A DNA stretch of 64,000 nt. Origin: Dendrophyllia cribrosa. Its lineage: Eukaryota; Cnidaria; Anthozoa; Scleractinia; Dendrophylliidae. Below the pieces are notes generated by a model. The model worked only from the letters and a program-made list of their open reading frames with translations. It did not search any database and was not told the DNA's origin. This document shows, piece after piece, positions 8,801-64,000 of this stretch. The position numbers and the translations under genes are program-made. The stretch covers positions 14,182,322 to 14,246,321 of the forward strand of contig JAJLRJ010000013.1 of the NCBI GenBank assembly GCA_024195265.1, written 5' to 3'. How positions within the stretch are numbered: the stretch's first letter is position 1; every line of letters starts with the position of its first letter.

Positions 8801-11800
8801 TGGTGAAAGTAACAAAACAGCGGAAGTTAACTCGCACAAATAACCGCTTGCAGATATACGTTTTTCAAATCCTCCGGCCCGCCCACTACCAAAAAAATAC
8901 CGAGATAACCAACTGGGTCCCGTTTCTCGGCTAGCTTTTTTTCACGGGATTTCCGGAGTTATTTTTTGACGAAACTACGGCCCCAGTGAAATGAGCAACT
9001 TGTTTCAGTAATGAGTGTATTAAATTAAATGTCAACCAGAAAAGTCCTGCACATAAATTTGATGCATCCAAATTGAAGGCTTATTATTTCCTGGAAATTT
9101 GTATCTAGCCTTTTTTTAAAGGTTTCTTTTATTATTCACAAAAGACACGTGGAAAAGGTTCCTTTGGCCTGGAAGACGCAAACTAATTAAATTAAATTGT
9201 TTTCAACTCCAAACCACAAGCTAATTAAATTAGTGACACGAAAATTCTTTGAACCACCTGTTTCTGTAATGTCAACCAGAAAAGTCTTTCACAGAAACTA
9301 AACGCATGAAAAATGAATATAAGTAGTCTCCTAGTAAATTGGAACTAATATTATTTAAACAACTGTTTTTATTCTCCACAAAAAAGTCGTGCAAATAGAA
9401 ACAGAACTAATTAGATTAAATTGTTTTCGACTCAAAACCACAAGCTAATTGAATTACTTACACGAACATTGTTGAGGTTAACATTTGGAACCAAACACCT
9501 TTTCCTGTAATGTCGACCAGCAGAAACTTAGCGCATCCAAAATGAATTTTGCTTGTTTCCTAGTAAATTGCAACTAATATTTTTTAAACAGGCGTTTTTT
9601 AACGCACCATATAAATTAATTACATTACGTTTTCTCGAAAACATGTTGAATTTCATCACGTACCAGTTTCTATAAGGACAAAGTTCAATATTTGCACGTG
9701 CACACAACGTGACTGCTCATACAAAATACAGCCGCTTCTCGCTTATAGTAATCGCTTGAGGCATACAATTAATAACCTACACATCAGCTCACATTAATTC
9801 AAAGAAAGATAAACGTTTTACATACTGTAAATTGTAGATTAATTGCATTACATTTTCTCTGTTGAACTCCATGCATCACGGACAAGTTTCTTTTAGGACA
9901 AAGTTCAACATTTTCACAAATAGTAATCTCTTGAAACCCAGGCTTGAAACATACAATTCATGTTCCGCATCATATTATTTGAAATCGGCTTGCCGTTTTT
10001 GCAATAAAACTATACTCATACTTCAATCAGTATAAGCTCACCTATGAACGTAACCGCAGTCCACATTTTTTGGACGTCTCATCCCCCGCAGACCATTCTA
10101 CTATTCATGCATAGGGCACATTATAGGCGGTATTTCCGAATAAATGTCCTTGATATTGCCAGGTTAGCAAGCCAGTCGGGATTAGAGAACAGTTCCCAAG
10201 CAACAAATTTTCAAAACTTTACACTTTTAGTGTTTGCGGCAACAATCGCGGAGATTCAAGATGGCTGATTTTCAATTCATGTCAAGTGACCTTCTTTGAC
10301 CTTCAGTAATACCATTTTAGAAGCGAAAATTTGATTGGCTGACATAGTACACGGTGTACATACAAGAGGCAATCTGATTGGTGTGACATAACCCAAGACA
10401 TACATACAAACAAACAAACAAACAAACTAACAAACATACTAACATCACAAACCAACCTTTGCGCCTGCTAATGAGCTATTTTTTTCAAAATAGCTCAAAA
10501 AAGTGTTGATTACACGAGCCATACATGTACAATGTACCTAGAACATAGGTGGCCCATATACTGTATGACCGGAGCTCAACCTGGCTTCTGTAGCATGAAC
10601 CAACTAGAAATTTTAGAACGTTTGCCTGTTTCCGGCTTTAAAATGATGAGTTCTGTAACATGCTAATGAGTTTGTAACGTTTTTGTAATGCAATGACTTG
10701 TGTAAACTTTTAATCAATGAAATCACAAATTTTGTCATTTTTTCACCTTTTGCAAATGTTGAAAACTACAGTGCTTAAAGCCATGCTCCATCACGCGTGA
10801 CCAGTAATCCACAAGACTGAAATAAACATTTGAATATTTCTTTGTAACGTCCGAAATTTGAATGAAACCTTGAAGATCTCTCTGGAAAACACTTTGAAAG
10901 TCATGAGTTAACGGAAAAATAACTTTGCTACACACATTAAAAAACAAATATTGTTCAGATACATGTAATGTAACATTTCAAATGAAATGATATTTTGTTG
11001 CTCTTTGTTTCCGAAAATGCAGTAAAATTCTCACAGGAATTCCGAATCTCGGAATGAATTTACAAACCGACGCGTAAACTTGAAAAATCCATTCAAATTT
11101 TCAAAAATACTGGTCACGCGTGACAGAGCATGGCTATAATACTGAAAAACAATCTCGTGAAAATAATTAAACTGTCTGGCTTAAAATGAACTGTGTGACA
11201 AACATCTGGTCTTTGTTTGTACTTTCCTTACACAATTGCACCATGGTATAAACTGAAATTGTTGTTTTATCATGATCAAAATAATGCTTCCTTAACCAAG
11301 TTTTTATCACAAATTACTGTGCACGCCGGCTATAAAATTAATGATTCTGGGCGGACCGTAACATCACTGCTATATTATTATTATTTAATAAAAGTTCACT
11401 TGTGTGCACTGTCCTTGAGGTTTCTACTTTATTCAGATAGCCACTGCATTTATTTTAATTATTTTCACAAGATTTTGATTTTATAGTTGTTTCCAGGTCC
11501 GCAAAGGCGAAACAAAATATTAATGTGTACTTGTCAAAATGATAATAAAAACATGTGATTTGGTTAAGTAAAAAAAAAGGTTCAATTATACAAATTGCAG
11601 CGGTGGTATTCATTTCTTTAAAATGTTAAAAGCTTGTTAGCTTGTTACAGAACTCATCATCATATCAAAAGTACATCATGTAAAACCTGGTTACGGGTAA
11701 ACATGCTATTGCTACTCCCACCCGTGCATGGGATTCATCAGGATTCACACGTCCATCGCAGTATTACCCTCAACATTTTGTCATGATTACTCATTTCTAC

Positions 11801-54600: not shown

Positions 54601-55928
54601 TGAAGAGAGAATATATCATAATCAGAGTTTTAATGAGTTTTCCAAGACACAAGACGATAAACTTGCAACGATCAGCAATCCATTTCCATCCTGGCCATCT
54701 ACCGCCCAAAACACTTATTTTTACTCTTAGGCCCCGTTTACACGGGTCCGGACAAATTTTTGCACGGACAAAAACTTGCACGGTTCCACCTTGCGTTTAC
54801 ACGGGACCGGCGGAACTAGACGAATTTTTGAACGGCTAAGTGTGCAAGTTCCGTGTAAACACCATTGCAATCTGTAACAGAATTTGCACGGATCCATGTA
54901 TACACGTGGTCTAGGAACAAAATTCGTCCGTGCAAAAATTTGTCCGGACCCGTGTAAACGGGGCCTTAGAGCACTAGTAGTAGAATGATTTGAAACAAAA
55001 CTGGACCATTATTTTTGGGTTTCCACTGATATAAATGTCTATCGGCTTTTTAAAGAAACACTTTAGGAGTGGTCACACTTTAGGATTTTATCCACAGACT
55101 CAAAAGTTAGAACCACCTTGTACAGCATAACAAACAGTCTGCAGGAAAGTACCGCTCAATAGCTTTCATTTGAGTGGTCACACTTTAGGATTTTATCCAC
55201 AGACTCAAAAGTTAGAACCACCTTGTACAGCATAACAAACAGTCTACAGGAAAGTACTGCTCAATAGTTATCATTTGAGTGGTCACACTTTAGGATTTCA
55301 TCCACCGACAGTCTCAAAAGTTAGAACCACCTTGTACAGGATAATTAACAGCACCACAGGAAAGTACTGCTCTGTAGCTTTCCTTTAAATGGTAGCACTT
55401 TAGGATTTAATCCACAGACTCAAAAGTTAGAACTACCTTGTACAGCATAACAAATAGTACGTCAAAAAAGTAATGCTCACTAGCTTTCATATGAATGGTA
55501 ACACTTAAGGATTTTATCAACAGACTCACCTAGAACCACCTTGTGCACTGTCATAACCTGTAACCTTGCAATGGACTCGCATCTCATCCAGGGGGGAGTG
55601 GAAATACTCCCAGTTGCTTCATGCTACAGAAACCGGGTTAATCTCCGGCCGTGTAGGCAGTCTGTGGCTCGTGTAGGCTACCTGTGGCTCGTATGCGACC
55701 TGTGGCTCGTATGCGACTTTACCTTACCTTGCATTATAGAGCGGTTTTCATTTGAGTGTCGTAAAACCAAAACCAAAGTAATTACTCTGACCAATCACAG
55801 CAGTCGTAAACAATCCAATGAACCAATCATGATCAGAGCTCGAAGCAATAGGCCATTTCCGAGTTACGTTACGCCTCGTTGTCAAAGCGAGGCTAGGTGC
55901 ACAACCTTTCATATGAAAATGAGTTTTC

Positions 55929-55959
<31 letters not shown>

Positions 55960-56572
55960 TGAAAGGTTTCGCACCTAGCCTCGCTTTGATATAGAGGCTA
56001 AAGGCAACTCGGAAATGGCCTATTACATGTCGGCGGCGCCAAGCGCGGGAAAACGCGTGCGAGAAAGTCACAATTGGTTTTGGTTTTACTTCTGATTGGT
56101 CGAGAAAGTGGCGCGAGTTTTTTTAGCCAATCACAAAGCGTAGCAATGCAAAACCAAAGCAATTGTGTAATTACTTTCGACACTCAATTGAAAACTGCTC
56201 TATAAAGTGAGGTTTGATTCGTGAAGTAAGAAGAGAAAAGTTAACGTGTCCCCTTTTATTTTCTCTTTTCTTTGCACTGCAGTATTTTGTTTGTTCGTTT
56301 AAGTCGAAGCTGTTTGTTGAGAGCTTGATGCAAGGGAATATCACCTGTCAGGTAACTTAATTACAGCGTTAAAATGGTCACTTACGTAAGCTACCACAGC
56401 GAGGTAATGACGCTGATTGCAAACCTTCTTTTGATTTGATATTGAAAAAATTAAATTACGTTATTTGTTGTTCGCTGCAGCATTCGCAACACGCAAAAAA
56501 GAAAGCATATTCGCGTTCAATCTTCTTTTTTTCCTTCCAGGAAGCCATCTCATCACAGGAACAGTTGTACAG
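2796..56572 (+). CDS. NRDC: Nardilysin (M16 zinc metalloprotease), 33 exons, 3' end outside window
   Basis: Nardilysin is an M16 peptidase that cleaves at basic or dibasic sites and promotes ectodomain shedding. The joined exons give 769 codons plus 2 nt with no stop, and every intron is GT-AG with matching phase. Seen in order: a short N-terminus; an Asp/Glu-rich insert (about residues 39-85), typical of nardilysin and absent from insulysin; the zinc site HFLEH (126-130) with the third ligand Glu207, exactly 76 residues after His130, as in insulysin; then GGSDNASTDCER, GHPFGRFLWGN, LLGHEGPGS, GNGESGQEHN and EGFNHKLA, all nardilysin-like. Vertebrate nardilysin is about 1150 residues, so roughly the last third is missing. 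The last exon seen ends at 56572 with an open donor. The span given is the whole coding region including introns; exons are listed separately. Substrate and localisation are family knowledge, not seen here. Confidence 0.95.
2985..3971. mobile_element. TTAA-flanked element, TTAACCCATTGAC family, copy 1
   Basis: A 987-bp insertion in intron 1 bounded by TTAA (2981-2984, 3972-3975) with inverted ends CCCATTGAC / GTCAATGGG. The CCC start is piggyBac-like. A second, clearly homologous copy lies at 15297-16306; both lack a transposase frame. Confidence 0.85.
4008..4059 (+). repeat. tRNA-derived fragment with B-box
   Basis: GGGTTCGAATCCTGGTGGGA looks like the T-arm and 3' acceptor of a tRNA (B-box GGTTCGAATCC), but the 5' half is degraded. 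Probably a SINE head relic; the hAT-like element starts directly after it. Confidence 0.4.
4060..5221. mobile_element. hAT-like non-autonomous element
   Basis: A 1162-bp unit with 22-bp inverted termini beginning CAGGGCTGCAAATAACGGCC; the CAGGG start is typical of hAT elements. Internal motifs with 'ccggcca/accggac' repeat near both ends. No 8-bp duplication is visible at the flanks and no transposase frame remains. Confidence 0.75.
4828..4860 (+). repeat. (ATCA)n microsatellite
   Basis: About eight ATCA units with one ATCG variant, inside the hAT-like element. Confidence 0.8.
5222..5688. other. Intron 1 stretch without recognisable features
   Basis: Both strands were read; only short non-homologous frames are present. 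Nothing supportable beyond intronic sequence. Confidence 0.5.
5689..5859. mobile_element. Foldback MITE (TTCAAATTTTTCTTTGG family), full palindrome
   Basis: A 171-bp near-perfect palindrome: the left arm from TGTATATGTTGTGGTTC is mirrored at the right end. Arms of about 75 bp flank a short loop. Related partial copies lie at 18707-18808 and 22831-22978. Confidence 0.85.
6055..6758. mobile_element. Inverted-repeat element with internal duplication
   Basis: Termini CACAGATTCACTCAAAATCG (left, about 6061) and the reverse complement near 6731-6752 bound a 704-bp unit. Inside, a block of about 190 bp is repeated (about 6110-6275 and 6440-6615), each with ATATCCCATAA, TTTTGGCGCCA and TGACGTCA. Noncoding. 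Confidence 0.7.
6917..7181 (+). CDS. NRDC: NRDC exon 2 (N-terminal strand and acidic insert)
   Basis: Acceptor TTTAAAAG at 6909-6916 after a pyrimidine-rich tract; encodes VINLENGLTALLISD and then an Asp/Glu-rich stretch ending SRKSKDTKL, with donor GTAAGT. The first part matches the nardilysin segment IKLQNGLQALLISD. The acidic insert (about residues 39-85) is nardilysin-specific; part is encoded by GATGAT repeats that could vary in length. Confidence 0.93.
7060..7104 (+). repeat. GATGAT/GGTGAT repeats within coding acidic domain
   Basis: Trinucleotide-rich stretch coding for poly-Asp/Gly within exon 2. In-frame length variation would alter the acidic insert without frameshift. Confidence 0.7.
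7182..8566. other. Intron 2, mostly unique sequence
   Basis: No repeat element or gene recognised. Palindromic TACATGTA/GTACATGTAC words cluster at 7193-7222 and 8335-8480. Confidence 0.5.
8567..8648 (+). CDS. NRDC: NRDC exon 3 (zinc-binding HxxEH)
   Basis: Residues 104-131. Encodes GAGSFSDPDDIPGLAHFLEH: His126 and His130 are zinc ligands and Glu129 the catalytic base in M16 peptidases. Donor GTAAGT; the next Met codon is split A|TG. Confidence 0.97.
8752..10500. repeat. Composite repeat block in intron 3
   Basis: Bounded by ATGAGCTATTTTGAAAA (about 8765) and its reverse complement TTTTTTTCAAAATAGCTC (about 10480). Contains three diverged tandem blocks sharing ATGTCAACCAGAAAAGTC and CCACAAGCTAATTAAATTA (about 9000-9550), and a CAAA-rich tail at 10399-10440. 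No coding homology seen; class unknown. Confidence 0.5.
10500..12068. other. Rest of intron 3, nothing recognised
   Basis: AT-rich unique-looking DNA on both strands; no gene, RNA or clear element. A weak inverted similarity (GGTCACGCGTGA motifs at about 10795 and 11110) was noted. Confidence 0.4.
12069..12169 (+). CDS. NRDC: NRDC exon 4
   Basis: Residues 131-164: MVFMGSEKYPDENSFDAF then HGGSDNASTDCER, near-identical to vertebrate nardilysin. SDNAST is the substrate-binding loop region of the catalytic domain. Phase 0 donor GTACAG. Confidence 0.97.
12297..13705 (+). repeat. Dispersed repeat interrupted by a hAT-like element
   Basis: Sequence before 12382 and after 13428 aligns with 30096-30289 (shared AAATGGTAC..ATGCAAA, GGTCACAC, GACAGACTCAAAAG, GTGAGTGAAAGGGT). 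The hAT-like element sits between the two halves, so the 30-kb copy shows what the site looked like before insertion. Confidence 0.6.
12383..13427. mobile_element. hAT-like element, GGGCAAGC family
   Basis: A 1045-bp unit. The right end reads (reverse complement) CAGGGTGGGATGAAAATG, a typical hAT start; the left end is diverged (CAAGGCGCGACAAAAG). Sub-terminal CCCGGGGCTAG and GCCCGACGGGCAAGC blocks are mirrored. TACCAT occurs at both flanks, a likely remnant of the target duplication. No transposase frame. Confidence 0.7.
13741..15290. mobile_element. 1.55-kb inverted-repeat element
   Basis: Left end TAATTGAAGGGCTTAGAATA with GGCTAAGTGACTTTTTGG; right end mirrors it at 15246-15290. It holds a 227-bp tandem duplication and many 'agtgaaacgaacaa' type motifs, but no recognisable protein. 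It abuts the TTAACCC element that starts at 15297. Confidence 0.65.
14451..14904 (+). repeat. Tandem duplication, 227-bp period, two copies
   Basis: 14451-14677 and 14678-14904 are nearly identical, each starting AGTTTTATTGATGAAAGG and ending around CTAACCCTAACGG. Recent duplication inside the 1.55-kb element. Confidence 0.9.
15297..16306. mobile_element. TTAA-flanked element, TTAACCCATTGAC family, copy 2
   Basis: A 1010-bp copy of the element at 2985-3971, same orientation, bounded by TTAA at 15293-15296 and 16307-16310. Ends CCCATTGACACCTGA / TCAGGTGTCAATGAG. The same internal noncoding features persist in both copies. Confidence 0.85.
16497..16549 (+). CDS. NRDC: NRDC exon 5
   Basis: Residues 165-182: TTFIFDVRRKYFKETLD plus a split Arg, matching nardilysin VFQFDVQRKYFKEALDR. 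Acceptor TTTTTTGCAG. Confidence 0.95.
16642..16715 (+). CDS. NRDC: NRDC exon 6
   Basis: Residues 182-207: FAQFFISPLL then EESVDREIQAVES, ending with the first base of the Glu207 codon. That Glu aligns with the third zinc ligand of M16 enzymes, so intron 6 splits its codon. Confidence 0.95.
17905..18159 (-). repeat. tRNA-derived SINE (minus strand)
   Basis: Reading on the minus strand from 18159: a tRNA-like head with A-box TAGCTCACTTGGTAGAGA and B-box GGTTCGAATCC, then a body to about 17905. Not a functional tRNA; the acceptor stem and anticodon arm do not pair properly. Located in intron 6. Confidence 0.75.
18324..18348 (+). repeat. Poly(C) run of 25
   Basis: C homopolymer about 75 bp before exon 7. 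Confidence 0.95.
18422..18517 (+). CDS. NRDC: NRDC exon 7
   Basis: Residues 207-239: EFRMSYQSDSVRKMQLLALL then GHPFGRFLWG, matching EYQLARPSDANRKEMLFGSL and GHPMGKFFWG of human. Donor GTACGT, phase 1. Confidence 0.96.
18707..18808. mobile_element. Foldback MITE relic (TTCAAATTTTTCTTTGG family)
   Basis: The right half is well kept (TTTAAACCAAAGAAAAATTT then GAACCACA) and the left arm is eroded. Same family as 5689-5859. Confidence 0.65.
19271..19308 (+). CDS. NRDC: NRDC exon 8
   Basis: Residues 239-251, GNEETLQKVPKEK, matching GNAETLKHEPRKN. Only 38 nt, with clean AG and GTAAGT borders and correct phases on both sides. Confidence 0.93.
19446..19530 (+). CDS. NRDC: NRDC exon 9
   Basis: Residues 252-280: CIDVNKALRDFQKQMYSAQY then MTLAVISR. 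YSAQYMTLAV matches YSSHYMTLVV of nardilysin. Confidence 0.95.
19531..20124. other. Intron 9, nothing recognised
   Basis: No gene or element supportable. Confidence 0.4.
20125..20182 (+). CDS. NRDC: NRDC exon 10
   Basis: Residues 280-299: ESLDSLEKMIRESFSKIPN plus split Asn; matches ETLDTLEKWVTEIFSQIPNN. Donor GTAAGT, phase 2. Confidence 0.95.
20629..20662 (+). CDS. NRDC: NRDC exon 11
   Basis: Residues 299-310, NSQPKPTFKENV. Short (34 nt) but phase-consistent, after a pyrimidine tract and TTTTTTTTAG, in the place of human NNGLPRPNFGHLT. Confidence 0.85.
21081..21120 (+). CDS. NRDC: NRDC exon 12
   Basis: Residues 311-324: DPFDQSIFHKLYK, matching DPFDTPAFNKLYR. Acceptor TTTTTTTCAG. Confidence 0.94.
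21505..21740 (+). repeat. (TACCAC)n microsatellite, about 240 bp
   Basis: Nearly pure TACCAC/CACTAC hexamers with a TACATGTACATG interruption at 21683-21697. It opens artificial poly-Thr and poly-Val frames on both strands, which are not genes. Confidence 0.95.
22391..22665 (+). repeat. Tandem duplication, 141-bp period
   Basis: 22391-22531 repeats from 22532; both copies start GTTCACTCCCCCTCTCTTGC and contain TTTACTTCAGGTCAAACAGT. Confidence 0.85.
22831..22978. mobile_element. Foldback MITE relic (TTCAAATTTTTCTTTGG family)
   Basis: Starts GTGGTTCAATTTTTTTTTTG and ends with mirrored CTTTGAAAAGTGTCAAAGCC. Third, diverged copy of the family at 5689-5859. Confidence 0.6.
23071..23140 (+). CDS. 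NRDC: NRDC exon 13
   Basis: Residues 324-347: VVPVKDVHQLEITWVLPPQH then QHYR; matches VVPIRKIHALTITWALPPQQ. Donor GTCTGT, phase 2. Confidence 0.96.
23538..23615 (+). CDS. NRDC: NRDC exon 14
   Basis: Residues 347-373: IKPMHYVSWLLGHEGPGSIL then SLLIKR. YVSWLLGHEGPGS is a conserved M16 block. Confidence 0.97.
23972..24360 (+). repeat. Tandem tRNA-like half units (61-bp period) ending in a SINE head
   Basis: Six units start at 23972, 24033, 24094, 24155, 24222 and 24283, spaced 61 bp (one carries a 6-bp insertion). Each holds GTCCCAGTAGCTCAGTTGG + TTAGAGC, a tRNA acceptor/D-arm with a pol III A-box. Only the last unit continues into an anticodon-like and T-arm-like part ending GTTGGGGACT. Confidence 0.85.
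24424..25705 (+). repeat. Local repeats GTACCAAATCTGCGCCATCT, four copies
   Basis: A block with GGCGGAACGAATCGAGAAAA and GTACCAAATCTGCGCCATCT occurs near 24450, 24550, 25560 and 25650. Part of a segmental duplication within intron 14. Confidence 0.75.
25057..26105 (+). repeat. Segmental duplication in intron 14
   Basis: 25057-25405 and 25796-26105 are homologous: both carry TTTCAGAATCGGAGAAATA, CTGAGACCTTTCGGAGTACA, TTTTTGCCTGCGTGACATAT and ATCTATGATTACTACTAGT. Frames reading PCCVLRKVSDFSDI on the minus strand come from this repeat and match nothing known. Confidence 0.75.
26150..26243 (+). CDS. NRDC: NRDC exon 15
   Basis: Residues 373-404: SWAVSLLCGNGESGQEHNTS then FALFPCLISLT; matches WALALFGGNGETGFEQNSTYSVFSISITLT. 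Confidence 0.97.
26464..26647. mobile_element. Short inverted-repeat MITE (AGTAGTCCATC ends)
   Basis: Ends GAGTAGTCCATC / ATGGACTACTC about 180 bp apart, with a GC-rich imperfect stem-loop (CCGCCTCCCGCAAGG, GCGGGAGG) inside. Confidence 0.55.
26828..26854 (+). CDS. NRDC: NRDC exon 16 (27-nt microexon)
   Basis: Residues 405-413, DEGMDHIYE, matching human DEGYEHFYE. Flanked by ATTGCAG and GTAACA, phase 0 on both sides, so it could be skipped without frameshift. Confidence 0.92.
27082..27224. mobile_element. pogo/Tigger-like MITE
   Basis: A 143-bp unit with ends CAGTGGAAC / GTTCCACTG flanked by TA. CAGTGGAACCTC-type ends and TA duplications are typical of pogo-like Tc1/mariner elements. The longer element at 37933-39533 has the same termini. 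Confidence 0.75.
27300..27480 (+). repeat. Degenerate SINE copy with poly(C)
   Basis: Shares CACCACCAATGTG, GTTGAGTTTGTTGG and TTGCTCCGAGGG with the better SINE at 40925-41160. A run of 17 C lies at 27336-27352. Confidence 0.6.
27651..27709 (+). CDS. NRDC: NRDC exon 17
   Basis: Residues 414-433: ILTIVFQYLELLRQKGPQE plus split Arg; matches VAYTVFQYLKMLQKLGPEKR. Acceptor GTACTTGCAG. Confidence 0.95.
27710..28805. other. Intron 17 first part, nothing recognised
   Basis: Unique-looking apart from TCACTGATTTAAATATCTTT (28466), which recurs at 29527 and, diverged, near 55024. Confidence 0.4.
28810..29376. mobile_element. TTAA-type element, CCYTATTCGGCCTGG family
   Basis: A 567-bp unit with ends CTTATTCGGCCTGGG / CCCAGGCCGAATAGGG. 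The right flank is TTAA (29377-29380); the left is TCAA (28806-28809), probably a mutated TTAA. It contains poly(G) of 27 (28823-28849). Confidence 0.75.
29707..29952 (+). repeat. Dispersed repeat (TAGATTACTTCATGGGCAGT family), copy 1
   Basis: Homologous to 41220-41472 over TAGATTACTTCATGGGCAG, GTGAGAAAGTCGTTTCGCC, TTTCACACGCCAAATTTCAA. It ends about 28 bp before exon 18. Confidence 0.8.
29981..30035 (+). CDS. NRDC: NRDC exon 18
   Basis: Residues 433-451: RIFKELQTIENNEFRFREQ, matching RIFEEIRKIEDNEFHYQEQ. Strong pyrimidine tract then TCCAACAG. Confidence 0.97.
30096..30289. repeat. Dispersed repeat, GACAGACTCAAAAG family, copy 2
   Basis: Ends TTAACTCCTAAGAGT and GGGAGTGACAGGGTTAA are roughly inverted. 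Uninterrupted homolog of the repeat split by the hAT-like element at 12383-13427; a 3' remnant lies at 34770-34861. Confidence 0.6.
30354..30398 (+). CDS. NRDC: NRDC exon 19
   Basis: Residues 452-466: CEPYDYVEDLVENMQ, matching TDPVEYVENMCENMQ. Confidence 0.95.
30900..31158. mobile_element. MITE, GAGCGGTTTTCAATTGAGTG family, copy 1
   Basis: Ends AGTTGAGTGTCGTAAAACC / CGACACTCAATTG; internal GCCAATCACAACAGAC and TTTTGATTGGTTGAGAAA. Ends about 92 bp before exon 20. Other copies at 40002, 41888 and 55737. Confidence 0.8.
31251..31310 (+). CDS. NRDC: NRDC exon 20
   Basis: Residues 467-486: LYPLEDYLTGDNLMWEFNEE, matching LYPLQDILTGDQLLFEYKPE. Confidence 0.97.
31744..32029 (-). mobile_element. MITE with tRNA-like core, copy 1
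   Basis: Inverted ends around GACGTCGG..CTTATTGAGACTTATA and TATAAGTCTCAATAAGGTGT. The core on the minus strand has a tRNA-like A-box (TAGGTGGTACAGTGG) and B-box GGTTCAATCC. Copies at 36943 and 45446. Confidence 0.75.
32062..32200 (+). repeat. tRNA-derived SINE relic
   Basis: Head with CAGCTGAGTGGTTTGCGCA and TGGGTTCGACTCTC, then GAAGACTCGATTTTTCTGCG. Resembles the last unit of the tandem tRNA-like block at 24283. Confidence 0.55.
32320..32443 (+). CDS. NRDC: NRDC exon 21
   Basis: Residues 487-528: VIQNVQNLLTPERANILLLS then KSVQEECTDYEPWFQTPYNC; matches VIGEALNQLVPQKANLVLLS and EKWFGTQYS of human. Confidence 0.96.
32820..33136. mobile_element. MITE, GGCCCGTTTACACATGCG family, copy 1
   Basis: Degraded ends AAGGCCAGTTTCATTACAC and GTCAACAGGCCCTTA; internal GCGATTTTTGTGCAATTT and GAGCACGACAAAAATC. 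Flanked by TTA on both sides, suggestive of a Harbinger-type 3-bp duplication. Confidence 0.65.
33308..33340 (+). CDS. NRDC: NRDC exon 22
   Basis: Residues 528-539: DIDPQWLERWK, corresponding to IEDIENSWAELWN. Only 33 nt but phase-consistent (1/1). Confidence 0.9.
33584..33634 (+). CDS. NRDC: NRDC exon 23
   Basis: Residues 539-556: SLELNPELHFPEENKFI, matching NFELNPDLHLPAENKYI. Confidence 0.96.
33764..34419. mobile_element. TTAA-flanked element, GGACGTTCGCGC family
   Basis: A 656-bp unit with ends GGACGTTCGCGCG / GCGCGAACGTCC, flanked by TTAA at 33760-33763 and 34420-34423. Internal GGGGGTCACCGAC occurs twice. No transposase. Confidence 0.85.
34448..34769. mobile_element. MITE, GGCCCGTTTACACATGCG family, copy 2
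   Basis: Best copy: starts AAGGCCCGTTTACACATGCG with ATTTTTGTCGC and ends GCCTGTGTAAACGGGCCT. Interior full of GCGACAAAAATTGCA-type motifs. Confidence 0.8.
35040..35083 (+). CDS. NRDC: NRDC exon 24
   Basis: Residues 556-570: ATDFEIKDPDRTTSE, matching ATDFTLKAFDCPETE. Confidence 0.95.
35255..35436. mobile_element. Palindromic MITE, TACACC family, copy 1
   Basis: TACACCGAATGCAAATATGG at the left is mirrored at the right end; middle is TTCTTTTAT-rich. It directly abuts the hairpin MITE starting at 35439. Related copy 52642-52826. Confidence 0.8.
35439..35680. mobile_element. Hairpin MITE GGCCATTTCCGAGTT, copy 1 (type A arms)
   Basis: Near-perfect palindrome flanked by TA. Arms read GGCCATTTCCGAGTTGCC..TCAAAGCGAGGCTAGGTGCG; the loop contains an extra TTATTA-rich stretch of about 80 bp. 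Confidence 0.9.
35822..35897 (+). CDS. NRDC: NRDC exon 25
   Basis: Residues 571-596: FPELVHDCALGKVWYLKDTK then FKTPR; matches YPVKIVNTPQGCLWYKKDNK and FKIPK. Confidence 0.96.
35945..36104. mobile_element. Palindromic MITE GACCAATTCCGATATATTAA
   Basis: A 160-bp palindrome flanked by TA (35943-35944, 36105-36106) with about 65-bp arms that carry TTGGCTCCGAGGCTTAGGGG. Starts 46 bp after the exon 25 donor. Confidence 0.85.
36569..36748. mobile_element. MITE TAGCCTGTGAACAGGC
   Basis: Ends TAGCCTGTGAACAGGC / GCCTGTTCACAGGCTA; GC-rich interior. Confidence 0.8.
36943..37277 (+). mobile_element. MITE with tRNA-like core, copy 2
   Basis: Long near-perfect inverted ends (about 37 bp, GCATTAGATCCCATCCGCCT onward). 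The tRNA-like core is here on the plus strand (AGCTAGGTGGTACTCTGG, then TCACAGGTTAAATCC). Opposite orientation to copies 1 and 3. Confidence 0.8.
37584..37709. mobile_element. Palindromic MITE TTAGGCCCGGTTCAAACG
   Basis: A 126-bp almost perfect palindrome with a tiny loop (TGTTC region); arms carry TTCACATGTGCCGAATCT. Confidence 0.9.
37747..37866. mobile_element. MITE GGGCCGAGTTGTTC
   Basis: Ends GGGCCGAGTTGTTCGAA / TTTGAACAACTCGGCCC, with mirrored GGATTAGYGCTAATC inside. Confidence 0.8.
37933..39533. mobile_element. pogo/Tigger-like non-autonomous element, 1.6 kb
   Basis: Ends CAGTGGAACCTCGATTTAAC / mirrored GTTAAATCAAGGTTCCACTG, flanked by TA (37931-37932, 39534-39535). Internal copies of the same terminal motif (ATAACGAA, TTCGTTATATCGAGG) at 38040-38110 and 38612-38700 suggest nesting. 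No transposase. Confidence 0.85.
39639..39672 (+). repeat. (TTTA)n microsatellite
   Basis: About eight TTTA units upstream of exon 26. Confidence 0.9.
39835..39886 (+). CDS. NRDC: NRDC exon 26
   Basis: Residues 596-613: ARFYFHLMSPLLNASPE plus split Ser; matches AYIRFHLISPLIQKS. Acceptor GTCTCCAG at 39827-39834; a second AG four bases on would break the phase. Confidence 0.94.
40002..40252. mobile_element. MITE, GAGCGGTTTTCAATTGAGTG family, copy 2
   Basis: Left AGTTTTTAATTGAGTGTCGT, right GACACTCAATTGAAAACCGC + TCTA. About 250 bp. Confidence 0.85.
40254..40340 (+). repeat. 12-bp minisatellite GATAATAGATGR
   Basis: About seven units of GATAATAGATGG/A adjoining the right end of the MITE at 40002-40252. 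Confidence 0.9.
40832..41270 (+). repeat. 89-bp direct repeats flanking a SINE
   Basis: 40832-40920 and 41182-41270 match at all but about two positions (both contain CGCACGCGCAAGGCTGTATT and TACGGTATTTACGCACGAGT) and bracket the SINE. Confidence 0.9.
40925..41160 (+). repeat. tRNA-derived SINE
   Basis: Pol III-like head GGTGTAGTGGTGAGAGCACT (A-box) and GGTTCGATCC (B-box), then CTTGCTCCGAGAGGTTTTTC, TCCGGGTACTCCGGTTTTCC and a 3' end CTGCGGCTGATGTGGC. Same family as the relic at 27300-27480. Located in intron 26. Confidence 0.85.
41182..41472 (+). repeat. Dispersed repeat (TAGATTACTTCATGGGCAGT family), copy 2
   Basis: Continues past the 89-bp repeat to CTCAATAAGTATGAAATAA, as in the copy at 29707-29952. 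Confidence 0.8.
41699..41782 (+). CDS. NRDC: NRDC exon 27
   Basis: Residues 613-641: SMVLSDLFLCVLEYNLKEIA then YAADVAQLE; matches LFDIFVNILTHNLAEPAYEA and DVAQLE. Donor chosen at GA|GTAGGT so that Glu is completed by exon 28. Confidence 0.96.
41888..42465. mobile_element. MITE, GAGCGGTTTTCAATTGAGTG family, copy 3 (contains a hairpin insertion)
   Basis: Left CCAAACCAAAGTAATCACTC, right CACAATTGAAAACCGCTCTA. A separate palindrome (42052-42248) is inserted within it. The right end is 40 bp from exon 28. Confidence 0.75.
42052..42248. mobile_element. Palindromic MITE nested in copy 3
   Basis: TGCATTATTGAGTTATATAA at the left is mirrored near 42200-42222; arms carry AATTTTTAAGAACACTCGAG. Outer arms GGAAATAAAAAA are also mirrored. 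Confidence 0.8.
42506..42572 (+). CDS. NRDC: NRDC exon 28
   Basis: Residues 641-663: EYSMTVSETGIVLKMEGFNH then KLA; matches EYKLVAGEHGLIIRVKGFNH KLP. Confidence 0.97.
42819..44255. mobile_element. TTAA-flanked foldback element with ~400-bp inverted arms
   Basis: A 1437-bp unit starting GGTGTTTCCCTCCAGTTTCC, ending with its mirror, flanked by TTAA (42815-42818, 44256-44259). Arms 42819-43218 and 43858-44255 are highly similar; the centre has a second mirrored block CACGCAGAAATGCGTTACAC. No coding capacity. Confidence 0.9.
44269..44425 (+). repeat. TATAACTGAG minisatellite
   Basis: Irregular TATAACTGAG/TATAACTGAT units between the TTAA element and exon 29, ending about 23 bp before the exon. 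Confidence 0.85.
44448..44519 (+). CDS. NRDC: NRDC exon 29
   Basis: Residues 664-687: LLFETVIDHMANFTVSTQTF then EMVK; matches LLFQLIIDYLAEFNSTPAVFTMI. Confidence 0.96.
44715..44998. mobile_element. MITE, GGCCCGTTTACACATGCG family, copy 3 (eroded)
   Basis: Right end GCGACAAAAATCGCATGTGT + AAACAAGCCTAAA; left end eroded; interior GATTTGTCGCGCGATGTC as in 34448-34769. Confidence 0.65.
45056..45111 (+). CDS. NRDC: NRDC exon 30
   Basis: Residues 688-706: RKLIRSYRNTIIKPQKLV plus split Arg; matches EQLKKTYFNILIKPETLAKD. Confidence 0.94.
45446..45893 (-). mobile_element. MITE with tRNA-like core, copy 3 (contains a hairpin MITE)
   Basis: Ends CGGACACCTTATTGAGAATT / TATAACTCTCAATAAGGCG; core with GCTAGGTGGTGTAGTGGTAC on the minus strand. 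The GGCCATTTCC hairpin is inserted at 45497-45665. Confidence 0.8.
45497..45665. mobile_element. Hairpin MITE GGCCATTTCCGAGTT, copy 2 (type B arms)
   Basis: A 169-bp palindrome flanked by TA. Arms are type B: GAGTTACGTTACGCCTCGTT and GAGGCTAGGTGCACAACC. Confidence 0.9.
46318..46506. mobile_element. Palindromic MITE AATAGACAAATTCGGCTAAC
   Basis: A 189-bp palindrome with about 55-bp well-matched arms containing GCATTGTTGTACCCAATTCA. Lies between the hairpin MITE and the transposase ORF. Confidence 0.85.
46822..47883 (-). CDS. IS630/Tc1/mariner-type DDE transposase, intact frame, first Asp lost
   Basis: A 353-codon uninterrupted frame antisense in NRDC intron 30. Residues about 5-55 form a helix-turn-helix (RERIVRAFEDAHEDYLLIAD..NTARGIVAKYV) and about 65-115 a second helical DNA-binding part. 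The catalytic core shows FIGECSFNVW (155-167), IYDRAPVH (238-245) and LPPYSPFLSIVEQAF (260-274), the DDE_3-type pattern. Asp240 and Glu271 are present, but the position of the first catalytic Asp is Gly160 (codon GGC at 47406-47404), so the enzyme should be inactive as read. The 240-271 spacing (30 residues between) is shorter than the 34 usual for Tc1-like enzymes. No clear terminal inverted repeats could be assigned around it. Could be a recently dead copy or a retained non-catalytic protein. Confidence 0.85.
   Translation of the reverse strand: MAHRKRNRISNEHRERIVRAFEDAHEDYLLIADELEVHRNTARGIVAKYVREGRIQEMPRGGSNNVKIDDEMKDCLSDIINENCRLSLRQINQELRRRHPTKPLVHDRTIGRALDGIVVRIKLARSLQADHNSPDVIDERAQYANWFVTTGLRHNCVFIGECSFNVWTPRSHGGDGEKAYRQVCGQRGKNVTVTMAVSPVHGLVHHTAQVGGMSKQRYKDFLVQARQQLNPEELVFFIYDRAPVHGNAVHPGADTKLKVLPPYSPFLSIVEQAFAALQVAVVADISQPAIQKELNNREEARRRGVPLGDYRQEVLLGASERNMDTVTIQRCAQWYESMQTFLPCCLSRDPVDC
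47884..49085. other. Intron 30 stretch with one GC-rich palindrome
   Basis: The only clear structure is the stem GCACTGCACCGCCTGA and its mirror at 48508-48539, extended by AAGCATGTTTCG arms (about 48460 and 48553). Otherwise nothing recognised. Confidence 0.5.
51850..52506. mobile_element. MITE GGCTGCAGCCGCACT, nested
   Basis: A 657-bp unit with ends GGCTGCAGCCGCACTTTAAC / AGTGCGGCCGCAGCC, flanked by AAT on both sides (51847-51849, 52507-52509). Contains repeated AACCSGGTTAA-like motifs and the 110-bp palindrome at 52298. Confidence 0.8.
52298..52407. mobile_element. Perfect 110-bp palindrome TAGCCTGCGAATACAGCCGC
   Basis: Arms of about 47 bp with only minor mismatches around a short loop; starts and ends TAGCCTGCG / CGCAGGCTA. 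Nested in the GGCTGCAGCC MITE. Confidence 0.9.
52521..53042. mobile_element. Inverted-repeat element AGCGTGCGTTTCTCGAAAGT, nested
   Basis: Ends AGCGTGCGTTTCTCGAAAGT and mirrored at 52997-53042, with TTTCGG..CCGAAAG sub-terminal blocks. Contains the palindrome at 52642-52826. Confidence 0.8.
52642..52826. mobile_element. Palindromic MITE, TACACC family, copy 2
   Basis: TACACCTTATTTCAAAATGG / mirrored at the right end; TTTATTATTCTTTTAT shared with copy 1 at 35255. Confidence 0.8.
53944..54034 (+). CDS. NRDC: NRDC exon 31
   Basis: Residues 706-736: RSVRLSILQHVKWATVDKRS then AIPNVTVDMLK; matches DVRLLILEYARWSMIDKYQA LMDGLSLESLLSFVK. Confidence 0.96.
54159..54528. mobile_element. TTAA-flanked element with ~110-bp arms, GGAGG family
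   Basis: A 370-bp unit; ends GGAGGTTCGACTCAG / CTGAGTCTAGCCTCC, flanked by TTAA (54155-54158, 54529-54532). Arms carry GGGGTGTATGTTTTGAA and its mirror. Confidence 0.85.
54730..54965. mobile_element. MITE GGCCCCGTTTACACGGG with TTA duplication (Harbinger-type)
   Basis: Ends GGCCCCGTTTACACGGGTCC / mirrored, flanked by TTA (54727-54729, 54966-54968). The flanking repeat ACTCTTAGAGCACTAG exists uninterrupted near 28397-28425 and shows one TTA, confirming a 3-bp target duplication. Confidence 0.85.
55071..55545 (+). repeat. ~105-bp minisatellite, five units
   Basis: Units start near 55071, 55176, 55281, 55391 and 55497 (GGTCACACTTTAGGATTTTA, then CAGACTCAAAAGTTAGAACC). Same core as the dispersed repeats at 12297, 30096 and 34770. 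Confidence 0.9.
55737..56202. mobile_element. MITE, GAGCGGTTTTCAATTGAGTG family, copy 4 (contains a hairpin MITE)
   Basis: Left TAGAGCGGTTTTCATTTGAG, right CGACACTCAATTGAAAACTG + CTCTA. The hairpin MITE at 55851-56020 is inserted inside. Ends 80 bp before exon 32. Confidence 0.85.
55851..56020. mobile_element. Hairpin MITE GGCCATTTCCGAGTT, copy 3 (chimeric arms B/A)
   Basis: A 170-bp hairpin flanked by TA. The left arm has type B markers (GAGTTACGTTACGCCTCGTT, GGTGCACAACC) and the right arm type A markers (GGTTTCGCACC, GAGGCTAAAGGCAACTC). Confidence 0.9.
56283..56351 (+). CDS. NRDC: NRDC exon 32
   Basis: Residues 737-759: YFVCSFKSKLFVESLMQGNI then TCQ; matches SFVKEFKSQLFVEGLVQGNV TST. Confidence 0.96.
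56541..56572 (+). CDS. NRDC: NRDC exon 33 (last exon seen)
   Basis: Residues 760-770: EAISSQEQLY plus split Arg, aligned with human ESMDFLKYVVD. Pyrimidine tract and CCTTCCAG before, GTAATT after. The ORF is still open, so downstream exons must follow. Weak similarity on its own; accepted on phase and spacing. Confidence 0.75.
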
Positions 56573-57703: not shown

Positions 57704-58092
57704 TAATTTGACGTAGTTACGTATGGAATATTTCAAAGAGATGTTAATATATCACCAACTGCAAACCGGGCTGAAGTTGTCTGCCAATTCACTGCCAATT
57801 CGCCAGCTGCCAATTCACCTCTTAGAAGTATACTGCCAATTCGTTTCCTTTAGGAATTTAGTAAAGTTTATTCAACCATTGTTTCTTATGTCTCGCAAGA
57901 TTACTGAAAATATGATAAGCCTGCCAGCGGAATCTTAGAGCATGTACATTAAATCTAAAATGGTTTCCGATAATTACAAGACATGTAAACAAGAAGGCGG
58001 TAAAATATCTATATTCCTGACTGAATAACTACAAAACAATTCAAGGAATGGAAATCGATACAATTTACAATTGATATCTTTCAGAAGACCAT
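57704..58092. other. Spacer before the satellite
   Basis: Contains CTGCCAATTC repeated several times (57780-57843). No NRDC exon or other gene recognised. Confidence 0.4.
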
Positions 58093-61060
58093 TCCATCTC
58101 TAAATAATTCATTTTGTTCCTTAAAATGTGACTGAATTTTACACTCCCAAAGTTGGCACAGGTTGCCCAAAATTGCCACCATTTTGAGCGGAATAGAACA
58201 TTTGTCATTGAATAAATTATCAAGTGTCATTTAAACGGTAAGAGTAGACAAGCCACGTAAGAGCATCTTTAATCCTTATTCCATCTCTCGATATTTCACA
58301 CGCGTCTCTTCAGCTTTAGGTATAAATTAACGGCCCGAAAATCGCACAAAATAGCCAAAATGGCCACCATGTTGTCACGAAATACAACATTTATCATTGA
58401 ATAACTTATTAACTGTAGCTTAATCGGTAACAAATGACAAACCTTGTTGAAGCACATTCAATCATTATTCCATCTCTCGATATTTCACAACAGTCTCTAT
58501 AACCTTAGGTATAGATTAACGCTCCCAAAAATCGCACAAAATAGCCAAAATAGCCGTCATCTTGTCGCGAAATTCAATATTTGTCATTGAATAACTTATT
58601 AACTCTCACGTAATCGGTAACAAATAACAAACCATGTTAAAGCATCTTCAATCCTCATTCCATCTCTCGATATTTCACACGCGTCTTTTCAACCTTAGGT
58701 ATAAATTAACGGTCCCGAAAATCGCACAAAATAGCCGAAATTGCCGCCATCTTGTCAAGAAATACCATATTTACCATTGAATAACATATCGTCTGTCACC
58801 TAATCGGTAACAAATGACAAACCTTGTTGAGGAATCTTCAATCCTTATTCTGTCTCTCGATATTTCACACCCGTCTCTTTAACGTTAGGTATAGATTAGC
58901 GCTCCCAAAAATCGCACAAAATAGCCAAAACGGCCGCCATCTTGAAGCGAAATACAATACGTAACATTGAAAAACTTATTAACTGTCGCTTAATCGGTAA
59001 CAAATGACAAACCATCTTAAAGCATCTTCAATTCTTATTCCATCTCTCGATATTTCACACGCGTATCTTTGACCTTAGGTATAGATAAACGCTCCCAAAA
59101 ATCGCACACAATAGCCAATTGAAAATGGCCGCCATCTTGTCAAGAAATGCCATATTTACCATAGAATAAATTATTATCTGTCACTTAATAGGTAACAAAT
59201 GGCAAACTATGTTAAAGCATCTTCAATCCTCATTCCATCTCTCGATATGTCACACGCGCCTCTTCAACCTTAGGTATAAATTAACGGTCCCGAAAATCTC
59301 ACAAAATGGCCAAAATGGCCGCAATCTTGTCACGAAATACAATATTTACCATTGAATAACTTATCATCTATCAATTAATAGGTAACAAATGACAAACTTT
59401 GTTAAAGCATCTTCAATCCTCATTCCTTCTCTCGATATGTCACACGCGTCTCTTCAACCTTAGGTATAAATGAACGGTCCAAAAAATCTCACAAAATAGC
59501 CAAAATGGCCGCCATCTTGTAGCGAAATACAATACGTAACATTGAATAACTTATTAACTGTCACTTAATCGGTAACAAATGACAAACCTTGTTAAAGCAT
59601 CTTTAATCCTTATTCCATCTCTCGATATGTCACACGCGTCCGTGAACGTTAGGTATAAATTAACGGTCCCGAAAATCGCACAAAATAGTTAAAATAGCCA
59701 CCATCTTGTCACGAAATACAATATTGATCATTGAATAACTTATTAATTGTCGCTTAATCGGTAACAAATTACAAACCTTGTTAAAGCACTTTCAATCATT
59801 ATTCCATCTCTTGATATTTCACAACAGTCTCTATAACCTTAGGTATAGATTAACGCTCCAAAAATCGCACAAAATAGCTAAAATGGCCGCCATCTTGTCG
59901 CGAAATTCAATATTTGTCATTGAATAACTTATTAACTGTCACGTAATCGCCAACAAATGACAAACCATGTTAAAGCATCTTCAATCCTCATTCCATCTCT
60001 CGATATTTCACACAAGTCTCTTTAACGTTAGGTACAGATAAACGCTCCTAAAAATCGCACAAAATAGCCAAAATGGCCGCCATCTTGTCGCGAAATAGGC
60101 CATTTCCGAGTTGCCTTTAGCCTCTCTATCAAAGCGAGGCTTGGTGCGAAACCTTTCATATGAAAATGAGTTTTCATTCACATGCAAATAGGTTTTATTT
60201 GCATGTGAATGAAAACTCATTTTCATATGAAAGGTTTTGCACCTAGCCTCGCTTTGATAGAGAGGCTAAAGGCAACTCGGAAATGGCCTATTCAATATTT
60301 ATCATTGAATAACTTATTAACTGTCACGTACTCGGTAACAAATGACAAACCATGTTAAAGCATCTCTAATCCTCATTCCATCTCTCGATATTTTACACCC
60401 GTCTCTTTAACGTTAGGTATAGATTAACGCTCCCGAAAATCGCACGAAATAGCCAAAATGGCCACCATCTTTTAGCGAAATACAATATTTACCATTGAAT
60501 AACTTATCAACTGCCAATTTATCGGTAACAAATGACAAACCTTGTTAAAGCATCTTTAATCCTTATTCCATCTCTCGATATTTCACACGCGTATCTTTGA
60601 CCTTAGGTATAAATTAACGGTACCGAAAATCTCACAAATTAGCCAATTGAAAATGGCCGCCATCTTGTCACGAAACACAATATGTATCATTGAATAACTT
60701 ATCAACTGTCGCTTAATCAGTAACAAATGAAAAACCTTGTTAAAGCATCTTTAATCCTTATTTCATCTCTCGATATGTCACACGCGTCTCTTCAACCTTA
60801 GGTATAAATTAACGGTCCCGAAAATCGCACAAAATAGCCAAAATGGCCGCCATCTTGTCACGAAATACAATATTCATCATTTAATAACTTATTAACTGTC
60901 ACTGAATCGGTAACAAATGACAAACCTTGTTGAATCATCTGTAATCCTTATTCCATCTCTCGATATGTCACACGCGTCTCTTCAACCTTAAGTATAAATT
61001 AACGGTCCCATAAGTCGCACGAAATAGCCAAAATAGCCACCATCTTCACAAAACTCATTT
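58093..61060 (+). repeat. ~190-bp satellite array, forward orientation
   Basis: Fourteen clear units plus a degenerate first one. The landmark CCATCTCTCGATATTTCACA recurs about every 190 bp (58281, 58470, 58660, 58850, 59040 and on). Consensus features: ATTGAATAACTTATTAACTG, CAAATGACAAACCTTGTTAA, ACCTTAGGTATAAATTAACG, TGGCCGCCATCTTGT. Confidence 0.95.
60098..60288. mobile_element. Hairpin MITE GGCCATTTCCGAGTT, copy 4 (type A arms), inside a satellite unit
   Basis: A 191-bp palindrome flanked by TA, interrupting one satellite unit after GTCGCGAAA. Only this unit carries it, so it post-dates array expansion. Confidence 0.9.
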
Positions 61061-61631
61061 GAGCTTAAGTTGTACCGATTGGCAAAATTAAATGGAAAAA
61101 CTGAAAATTACTGTATAGCAACACAGCAACAACTTGACGTGGAGCTGCCACTCCTCGTTACCGGCGACGGAGAGAGCGAGTTAATGTTACTGTTTCGATA
61201 AATTCATAAACCCAATGATTTGATCTAAACCTTAAATTAAAAAAGGACCACAAGACACATATGGCGTAATAGGGGGACAACGTTCAGCGATTGGTGCGAC
61301 AGACGACTTCCATTGCATGCAGACCATTTTAAAGCCTCACTTCTCCTGGCACTACGAGCTGAAACCTAATGCGAGCAACGCGCCAAGCCGAGAAGAGTAT
61401 TGACAGCTCTAGAAAAACTAGGGCGCTACGAGCTGCAACCCAGAAACAGCGCAACAGCTACAGCACTAAGAGCTGAAACCTAAGGCCAGCAACGCGCCAA
61501 CTTTAGTAACTTATAATAATGACCTATCGAGCCTCACCTATCTCCCCAGGGGTGCTGGATCGGACCGGAATATTGGCAGGTCGATAATGCGAAAACGATT
61601 GCAAGACTACGCTTGGGGAAGCTGCGCAGAC
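61061..61631. other. Core between satellite arms, left part
   Basis: Contains a direct repeat GAGCTGAAACCTAA..GCAACGCGCCAA (about 61366 and 61471). No gene frame. Confidence 0.5.
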
Positions 61632-62289
61632 TTAACCGCCACAGATACGCGCGAAGCAGGTATCCCCTAAGCAAAAACACAACAAGAAACCTTGAACAGG
61701 TAACATTGCGGGATGAGAAACAATAGCTATCCTAGGAGCTGCGGGCATTAGAATCTGTTGTGGAGTACTTATATATAATTGGTAACAATCTGAAGGCCAT
61801 CTACCCAATACTATAATTAACCTGTCTGGCAAGCCTGCAGCAGCCGCTGTAGAGGCCGCGCCTATGCGAAACCTATGTTCTTTGAGACTGTGATAGGGGA
61901 TCCCGGCGTGACGAGCGGCGTCACGAAGAAGGCAGATAACTGCTAACCCGCTGACTGTGTTGCGGGCTAGCCAGACTGGGGTGAAAAGACATACATTCCC
62001 TACCCAGGTCGAAACGAGAACGAAAATTGCGAACTCCTTGGTAAGTAAATTCACTGCAGCGAAGGAAACCATAAAAGGCGAGCGTAAAGGCGGCCCACAC
62101 CACGGAGAAATCTTTGGGACTCAACCAGGCTCGCAGGAAGGGGCGGATAGCAAGTATAACCTCTGGGGTAACCGGTTGACGGAGGATCCGACCCTGCCCC
62201 TGGTAACTGAGAATACCCCGTAGGACTTTCTTCAGAAGCAGTTTTCTCACCAAATGGTCGCTGTGCCTACACGAGTGAAGATTACGCAC
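61632..62289 (-). pseudogene. Tyrosine recombinase (DIRS/Crypton-like), frameshifted
   Basis: Minus-strand frames 62289-61921 and 62072-61632 together resemble a retroelement-type tyrosine recombinase: LSYQGQGRILRQPVTPEVI, then AFYGFLRCSEFTYQG (the region of the first catalytic Arg), then YHSLKEHRFRIGAAS (HxxR), and LGRWPSDCYQLYIS (W and Tyr nucleophile). The reading switches frame around 62000, so it is broken; no N-terminal half or partner RT is attached. It sits between opposite-orientation satellite arms. Confidence 0.8.
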
Positions 62290-62439
62290 AGCAGCGAGAT
62301 TTTTTTTTTTTTTGGATTTTGTTTATTTATTTTTTTTCATAACGGTTTACATAAAAAAAACAAAAAGTACTGCAAAGAAATATTAAAGACAAGAAGGGAA
62401 ATTACAAAGAATCAAATTTACATACAATTTACAATAAAG

Positions 62440-62726
62440 ATAGAGTGAGATTTGTGATCCTCGCAGTGTGCTCTCAACTTAAGCAGTTGAAAAAGCAACC
62501 TGAAAAAAAATTCAGGCTTGAACGGAATTCGAACCCATGACCTTGCGATACCGGTGCAATGCTCTATCCACTGAGCTATCAAGCCACATGGATAGATGGT
62601 CAATTGTGAGTTCGTTATATACCCGATGATAGAGAATATATGTGAATAAGAATATATGAAACTCATATATTTGAACTGCGGATAAACATGACTGAGATTT
62701 GTGATCCTCGCAGTGTGCTCTCAACC
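62440..62726 (+). repeat. Direct repeat TGAGATTTGTGATCCTCGCA flanking the SINE
   Basis: The sequence TGAGATTTGTGATCCTCGCA + GTGTGCTCTCAACTT occurs at 62445-62480 and again at 62691-62726, bracketing the tRNA-like unit. Either a long duplication or two SINE body copies. Confidence 0.75.
62515..62585 (-). repeat. tRNA-Thr-like sequence (SINE head or tRNA pseudogene)
   Basis: On the minus strand, a 71-nt cloverleaf-like sequence with acceptor GGCTTGA/TCAAGCC, D-arm GCTCAGTGGATAGAGC, and T-loop GGTTCGAATTCC. The anticodon loop would read GGT but has C instead of U33 and a mismatched stem, so it is more likely a SINE head. The sequence downstream on the minus strand (TGAATTTTTTTTCAGG) fits a SINE body. 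Confidence 0.65.
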
Positions 62727-62844
62727 TTATGTACAAATTAACGCTCCAGATAATCGCGGAAAACCTTAGAGTTCTTTCGATTATTATTCCATCTCTCAAT
62801 GTTTAAGTTCCCTTATGAGTGATACTTAGACGGCAACAAATGAC

Positions 62845-64000
62845 GTATCCCGGCTGTTTTGGCTATTTTGTGCTATTTTTGGGAGCGTTAATCTTTACCT
62901 AAGGTGAGAGAGACTGGTTTGAAATATCGAGAAATGGAATAAGGATTGAAGATGCTTTAACAAGGTTTGTCATTTGTTACCTATTAAGTGACTGTTAATA
63001 AGTTATTCAATGATAAATATGGTATTTCTTGACAAGATGGCGGCCAATTTGGCTATTTCGTGCGATTTTGGGAGCGTTAATTTATACCTAAGGTTGGAGA
63101 GACTGGTGTGAAATATCGAGAGATGGAATAAGGATTAAAGATGCTTTAACAAGGTTTGTCATTTGTTACCAATAAAGTGACACTTGATAAGTTATTCAAT
63201 GGTAGATGTTGTACTTCGCCACAAGATGGTGGCTATTTTGGCTATTTTGCGCGATTTTCGGGACCGTTAATTTATACCTAAGGTTAAAGAGACGCGTGTG
63301 ACATATCGAGAGATGGAATAAGGATTAAAGATGCTTTAACAAGGTTTGCAATTTGTTACAGATTAAGTGACAGTTAATAAGTCATTCAATGATAAATATT
63401 GTCTTTTGTGACAAGATCAATATGGCGGCCATTTTGGCTATTTTGTGCTATTTTCGGGATCATTGATTTATACCTAAGGTTGAAGAGACGCGTGTGTCAT
63501 ATCGAGAGATGGAATAAGGATTACAGATGCTTCAACAAGGTTTGTCATTTGTTACCGGTTAAGTGACAGTTAATAAGTTATTCAATGATAAATATTGTAT
63601 TTCGTGACAGATGACGGCCATTTTGGCTATTTTGTGCGATTTTCGGGACCGTTAATTTATACCTAAGGTTGAAGAGACGCGTGTGAAATATCGAGAGATG
63701 GAATGAGGATTGAAGATGCTTTAACATGGTTTGTCATTTGTTAGCGATTACGTGACAGTTAATAAGTTATTCAATGACAAATATTGAATTTCGCGACAAG
63801 ATGGCGGCCATTTTGGCTATTTTGTGCGGTTTTTGGGAGCGTTAATCTATACCTAAGGTTATAGAGACTGTTGTGAAATATCGAGAGATGGAATAATGAT
63901 TGAAGGTGCTTTAACAAGGTTTGTCATTCGGTACTGATTAAGTGACAGTTAATAAGTTATTCAATGATAAATATTGTATTTCGTGACAAGATGGCGGCCA
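62845..64000 (-). repeat. ~190-bp satellite array, reverse orientation
   Basis: At least six units, the reverse complement of the 58-61 kb array (CGAGAGATGG landmarks near 62928, 63118, 63308, 63502, 63692, 63882), running off the right edge. A short + orientation fragment precedes it (62723-62815). Confidence 0.95.

Follow-up and report, generated by a model that had tools for sequence, protein, structure and literature searches.

A very probable non-autonomous foldback transposon with tandem-repeat arms and varied cargo, seen as an inverted satellite in the stony coral Dendrophyllia cribrosa

Near the right end of a 64,000-nucleotide stretch of the Dendrophyllia cribrosa genome (assembly GCA_024195265.1, contig JAJLRJ010000013.1, here C5:14182322-14246321, called the window), two arrays of a unit of about 190 bp face each other across a tyrosine-recombinase relic and a tRNA-like unit, which raises the question of what built and spread such a structure. 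The initial annotation had offered a giant element whose inverted ends had amplified, a satellite spread by a DIRS/Crypton-like recombinase, or a palindromic amplicon inside a gene. The first of these was borne out by defined ends, 9-bp target duplications and empty sites: the feature is, with little room for doubt, a non-autonomous foldback-type DNA transposon, and the arrays are the tandem-repeat domains of its terminal inverted repeats (TIRs). The 627-Mb assembly of the coral's own genome was searched, and the whole element was shown to have dispersed recently, though no copy carries a recognisable transposase. An odd satellite with a recombinase in its middle is thus explained as a mobile element with a passenger.

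The count of at least 14 forward and at least 6 reverse units held up, as Tandem Repeats Finder gave 15.1 units at 58167-61046 (period 190, score 3242) and 6.0 units at 62857-64000 (score 1688), opposite in orientation and with scores of a size far from chance. One unit used as query against the assembly gave 220 matches; the loci described here are those among the matches listed, which are part of the 220, and further loci may exist. There were at least 12 of them, eight two-armed (one each on C5, C16, C17 and C21, two on C1 and two on C3) and four one-sided (C20, two on C1, one on C22). The forward array stood on the left and the reverse array on the right in all eight two-armed loci, as inverted ends predict. 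A conserved domain of about 375 bp lies outside each array, and this outer domain matched 22 places, 14 of which were both ends of seven complete copies; the remaining places were four fragments, a relative on C22 (79%), and three ends standing alone, of which C1 has two and C17 one. Among the 12 loci it went undetected only at C20:10420970 and at a short piece at C22:9143760. The complete copies measure 7.0-22.1 kb each, with arms of 4 to 20 complete units, while at the C17 locus the arms meet almost directly.

Homology among the copies stops at one fixed place on both sides. Perfect 9-bp target duplications flank five of the seven complete copies (CAACTGCAA, TTGTTTTAC, TTGATGTAT, GTGCGGTCT and TCGCACGAA), and a sixth has an 8/9 duplication, GGTGGTACA/GGTGATACA, with one base different. 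Long composite TIRs of variable unit number are general in the family, and a duplication of 8-10 bp, the mark of a moving unit, flanks six of the seven copies. The flanks of each of the seven copies were also joined, with one copy of the target, and compared with the window and the stretches around the family loci, and for three of the seven, paralogous empty sites aligned through the junction. For the window copy this was one place, in a repeat that lies shortly after the downstream end of the element (92%, one gap column, 8/9 target bases); for the C1:8317755 copy it was four places in a dispersed repeat, three of them in the window (ungapped, 90-93%) and one in stretch L032 (90%); for the C3:32443145 copy it was two places in local repeats. 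Two copies, C16:2712584-2719616 and C1:5862746-5869798, are identical at 7018 of 7033 aligned bases (20 gap columns); as they lie on separate contigs and within different perfect duplications, the family moved recently.

The window copy spans C5:14240086-14247479, with CAACTGCAA adjoining both ends (on the left at window 57756..57764, on the right directly after C5:14247479). The limits first proposed, 58093..64000, need correction: the element begins at 57765, the outer domain having been missed, and it ends 1,158 bp past the window. Each arm is built, from the outside in, of the outer domain, which begins ACCGGGCTGAAGTTGTC, followed by the tandem array. The parts are as follows, in window positions unless a contig is named.

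57756..57764, no strand: left target-site duplication CAACTGCAA, placed from the ends and the paralogous empty site
57765..58138, plus: left TIR outer domain, starting ACCGGGCTGAAGTTGTCTGCC; inner limit approximate
58139..61046, plus: left tandem-repeat domain, forward units of about 190 bp
60098..60289, no strand: near-perfect palindromic miniature inverted-repeat transposable element (MITE) of 192 bp with an apparent TA duplication, nested in one unit
61047..62850, no strand: middle domain (core) of the window copy
61054..62302, minus: passenger, a piece of a separate dispersed element with a tyrosine recombinase; the end at 62302 is interpolated
61719..62298, minus: tyrosine-recombinase relic, aligning with protein P0007 at residues 66-180 and 241-315
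62303..62585, minus: tRNA-derived short interspersed nuclear element (SINE) cutting the recombinase relic, with its A-tail near 62303; ends approximate
62851..64000, minus: right tandem-repeat domain of reverse units, continuing to about C5:14247098
about C5:14247098 to C5:14247479, beyond the window: right outer domain

The forward array comprises 13 complete or nearly complete units (one shortened, one split by an insert), a divergent outermost unit and a partial innermost one, and it is broken by the MITE, which is present in four of the seven complete copies. The reverse array has five complete units and two partial ones inside the window, and the right arm in full has nine complete units and a divergent outermost one. 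Four CTGCCAATT direct repeats lie in the left outer domain, at element positions 17, 28, 43 and 69. A kinship between outer domain and repeat unit, as reported for Tetris of Drosophila virilis, is suggestive only, with an alignment score of 65 that was reached by 11 and 13 of 500 shuffles (two heads). Compared with the C1:5862746-5869798 core, that of the window copy is shorter by about 590 bp present in the former.

Which enzyme moves the element can be addressed by analogy. It is presumably mobilised in trans by a putative, perhaps Mutator-like, transposase: the 9-bp duplications point to such an enzyme, 9 bp being a common target duplication for Mutator-like elements (MULEs) according to a study of root-knot nematodes (PMC3169594), and the presence of 39 MULE matches in the genome, many of them in long open frames, makes it the likeliest source. 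No MULE was found between the element ends, judging by the places of the terminal 21-mer at up to three mismatches and by one MULE locus read in part, and the element is therefore not filed as one. That a transposase of a superfamily other than Mutator is responsible is unlikely, though it deserves to be kept in view. It would agree with the lack of any MULE found between the ends and with the rise of foldback architecture in more than one superfamily, according to the reports on Galileo (PMC3688188) and Tetris (PMC4079207); the five perfect 9-bp duplications and the 39 MULE matches argue against it. The terminal 21-mer, with up to three mismatches, was found at 25 places, of which 18 were ends of the family or of the C22 relative; the other seven had three mismatches each, and a control with the reversed pattern gave four.

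Several observations weigh against a foldback transposon that is moved in trans. No transposase was recognised in any copy, and no search aimed at P-type transposases was made. The nearest of the seven extra 21-mer places lies about 206 kb from any of the 39 MULE matches, and two of the seven, read as candidates for a related family, both proved to be another GGCTGAAA-rich repeat. One of the 39 MULE loci was partly read, over 2.6 kb to either side, and had no such ends. The C21 copy is without a target duplication, and its stretch includes 1,431 unread bases. None of the empty sites is allelic, all being paralogous, and for the C3:32443145 copy they are just 81-82% alike, with 37-42 gap columns and 7/9 target bases. 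A MULE at C12:27498452 was rejected as a partner, since no ends like those of the family occur in what was read of it; the locus does share 284 bp at 91% with the C1:8317755 copy, in the insert of that copy and not in its TIRs.

If the arrays belong to the element they should have travelled with it, whereas a satellite would have been amplified where it lies. In a comparison of 155 complete units, incomplete ones being excluded, mean identity was 0.845 between adjacent units and 0.843 between units of different elements. The best match of 140 units, counted with the near-duplicate C16 copy left aside, lay in another element for 121, in the same arm for 17 and in the opposite arm for 2. The figure of 121 equals chance (121.5 expected) and decides nothing alone, and the 17 same-arm matches are somewhat above chance (shuffled mean 9.7, standard deviation 3.7); these counts show just that units lying side by side resemble each other hardly more than units from different elements do. 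The order of the units is more telling. For 32 of 119 neighbour pairs the best matches are also neighbours in one other element, against a mean of 1.2 and a maximum of 6 in 500 shuffles, and since unit order is shared so far above chance, the arrays travel inside the element. In the window copy, two pairs of units three apart are 97-98% alike, and so local exchange happens too.

These data make it very improbable that the locus is a locally amplified satellite with its inversion a chance rearrangement or a palindromic amplicon. The variation in arm length, the slight excess of same-arm matches and the traces of local exchange would all fit such an origin, but neighbouring units are not those most alike, unit order is common to different elements, and the arms face each other in the same way at every one of the eight two-armed loci, with transposon ends and duplications present in the family. 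Local satellite amplification was therefore rejected as the main cause, and the anatomy of a transposon makes the reading as a palindromic amplicon inside a gene unnecessary.

The 1.8 kb between the arms of the window copy do hold the recombinase relic of the initial description. It consists of two parts, both on the minus strand: 62298-61957, 84% identical to residues 66-180 of P0007, and 61943-61719, 81% identical to residues 241-315. P0007 is an uninterrupted 316-residue protein; named relatives come from the stony corals Oculina patagonica, Montipora foliosa and Porites lutea. Searching Pfam and the PDB sequences with the relic gave no useful result, and recognition came by way of these relatives. 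A frameshift separates the two parts, 60 residues have been lost between them, and the start has gone where the tRNA-derived SINE was inserted. The tRNA-like unit reported earlier is likewise there, at 62585-62514 on the minus strand (51.9 bits with Rfam; tRNA-Thr according to ARAGORN).

Five of the seven complete copies share the recombinase core, with identities of about 95-99.7%, which makes a single acquisition the simplest account. In a search of the whole genome with the core, in which 40 of 2057 candidates were scored, 61 matches were listed; 54 lay outside the family, all within core positions 39-1838, and so the fragment belongs to another dispersed element. Whether a recombinase always sits at the switch point between the arms was checked across the eight two-armed loci, and it does so at only five, the exceptions being C3:23003844 and C3:32443145, which have other cores, and the C17 locus; no recombinase is therefore needed at that point. 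The recombinase is a dead passenger, and its link to the arrays is accidental.

The weakest explanation, a satellite spread by a DIRS/Crypton-like tyrosine recombinase at the switch point, is hardly credible: the relic does lie between the arms of the window copy and four sisters, but it is frameshifted and short, most listed matches mark it as a piece of another element, the three loci without it refute a general rule, and full copies neither carry a tyrosine recombinase throughout nor lack a long target duplication. Recombinases of this type are not known to leave a long target duplication such as 9 bp. Here and below, Polinton, DIRS, Penelope, SINE and tyrosine-recombinase features were recognised partly by their look.

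Among foldback elements the transposon appears, by architecture, to be matched most closely by Tetris and Tm1. Tetris, as described in PMC4079207, likewise has composite TIRs with an outer flanking domain followed by tandem repeats in variable number, a variable middle domain without apparent coding capacity, no transposase found, and target duplications of 8-10 bp, where those here are of 9 bp. Its unit is about 220 bp long as against about 190 bp, and the two are likened by architecture, not by sequence. The coral element differs in that its middle domain holds a recombinase relic with a SINE, a Polinton-like element or a conserved open frame, and in that the repeats of Tetris occur as long free arrays of satellite type as well, of which there were none among the matches listed here. 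Tm1, a Mutator/Foldback element of root-knot nematodes, shares composite TIRs, variable tandem repeats and mostly 9-bp duplications, as reported in PMC3169594, but its units are of about 14 bp and one of its copies encodes a FLYWCH-MULE transposase; no such copy was found here. Galileo, of the P superfamily in Drosophila, is similar in its long, internally repetitive TIRs and, according to PMC3688188, has a P-type transposase, in contrast to the 9-bp duplications and lack of a transposase found in the coral. Pack-TIRs such as Ssk-FB4 resemble it as TIR transposons that multiply foreign sequence by transposition, according to PMC8277862; here, unlike there, the multiplied cargo is the relic of another mobile element, and the conserved frame is in one copy only. 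Among the titles and abstract beginnings listed from an open-access library, none described a cnidarian foldback element, from corals or otherwise, whose arms are tandem repeats, and no paper there joined foldback, coral, transposable elements and terminal inverted repeats. The kind of mechanism is already known, and the element is a clean further foldback member with recent activity and varied cargo.

By analogy, a transposase encoded elsewhere would bind the outer tip, with its four CTGCCAATT repeats, and perhaps the repeated units too; in Galileo, transposase binding sites sit in the tandem repeats, according to PMC3688188. The bound transposase may then pair the arms, excise the element and reinsert it. 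Arm length would shift by unequal exchange or slippage among units, and the middle domain, which is exchangeable, would take up whatever lands or is copied there, be it a recombinase fragment with a SINE, a DIRS-like element, a Polinton-like element or an open frame conserved in corals. With its near-identical copies and clean empty sites, the family is tractable for asking how tandem repeats in TIRs arise and act.

The other cores differ widely. That of the C3:32443145 copy, at 17.7 kb, was considered as an autonomous form and rejected, being instead a nested Polinton/Maverick-like element with its own TIRs of about 295 bp and a 5- to 6-bp duplication, GCGTT(A). It lies at about C3:32444898-32462450 (stretches L017-L019), with an A32-type ATPase match over Pfam's cut-off and an integrase match (E 9.6e-7) below it. 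The C1:8317755 copy has a 4.6-kb insert (L013, about 4993-9606) whose open frames resemble, by look and through short matches, a DIRS-type retrotransposon with its own tyrosine recombinase.

The copy at C3:23003844-23015233 carries an uninterrupted open frame of 263 residues (L015:5763-6551, minus strand). The protein collection contained 11 relatives of its product, and the only named one comes from the stony coral Desmophyllum pertusum; aligned with ten of the 11 (P0131 was excluded), the protein shows 45-94% identity, a mean column identity of 51% and many invariant residues. The only full copy found in the assembly is the one inside the transposon, and no parental gene was found there; one other match, of 52 residues at 48%, seems, by look, to be part of a different gene. 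A structure model was too poor for a structure search (predicted local distance difference test 53.6). We tentatively consider, as a possibility that is rather doubtful, that the foldback transposon took over a conserved coral gene, either relocated with its parental locus lost or serving as the element's own helper protein, in which case this copy would be nearest the autonomous form. On the former view the copy is a possible case of gene relocation by a foldback element.

Some relatives and neighbours of the family were also seen. The 79% relative of the outer domain is at C22:22643385, with the terminal 21 bases identical; no second end occurs within the 30 kb read, and an OTU-protease open frame lies 3.3 kb inward of this end. 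In viral contigs two 17-mers matched, but the rest of the element end was missing there, and the unit had no match. Three degenerate relatives (68-73%) of parts of the outer TIR domain, perhaps an older family, lie immediately upstream of the C3:32443145 copy, at C3:32435896-32442532. An open frame resembling, by look, a Penelope-type reverse transcriptase (L025:5602-6453, minus strand) interrupts the one-sided C1:14888711 copy. Elsewhere in the window, the palindromic MITE family has four members in all (35438-35681, 45496-45666, 55850-56021 and 60098-60289), and there are tandem arrays of a 105-bp unit at 55067-55528 (4.3 copies), of (CTACCA)n at 21520-21733 (35.7 copies), and of a unit of about 61 bp at 23957-24306 (5.6 copies) that reads, by look, like the 5' half of a tRNA.

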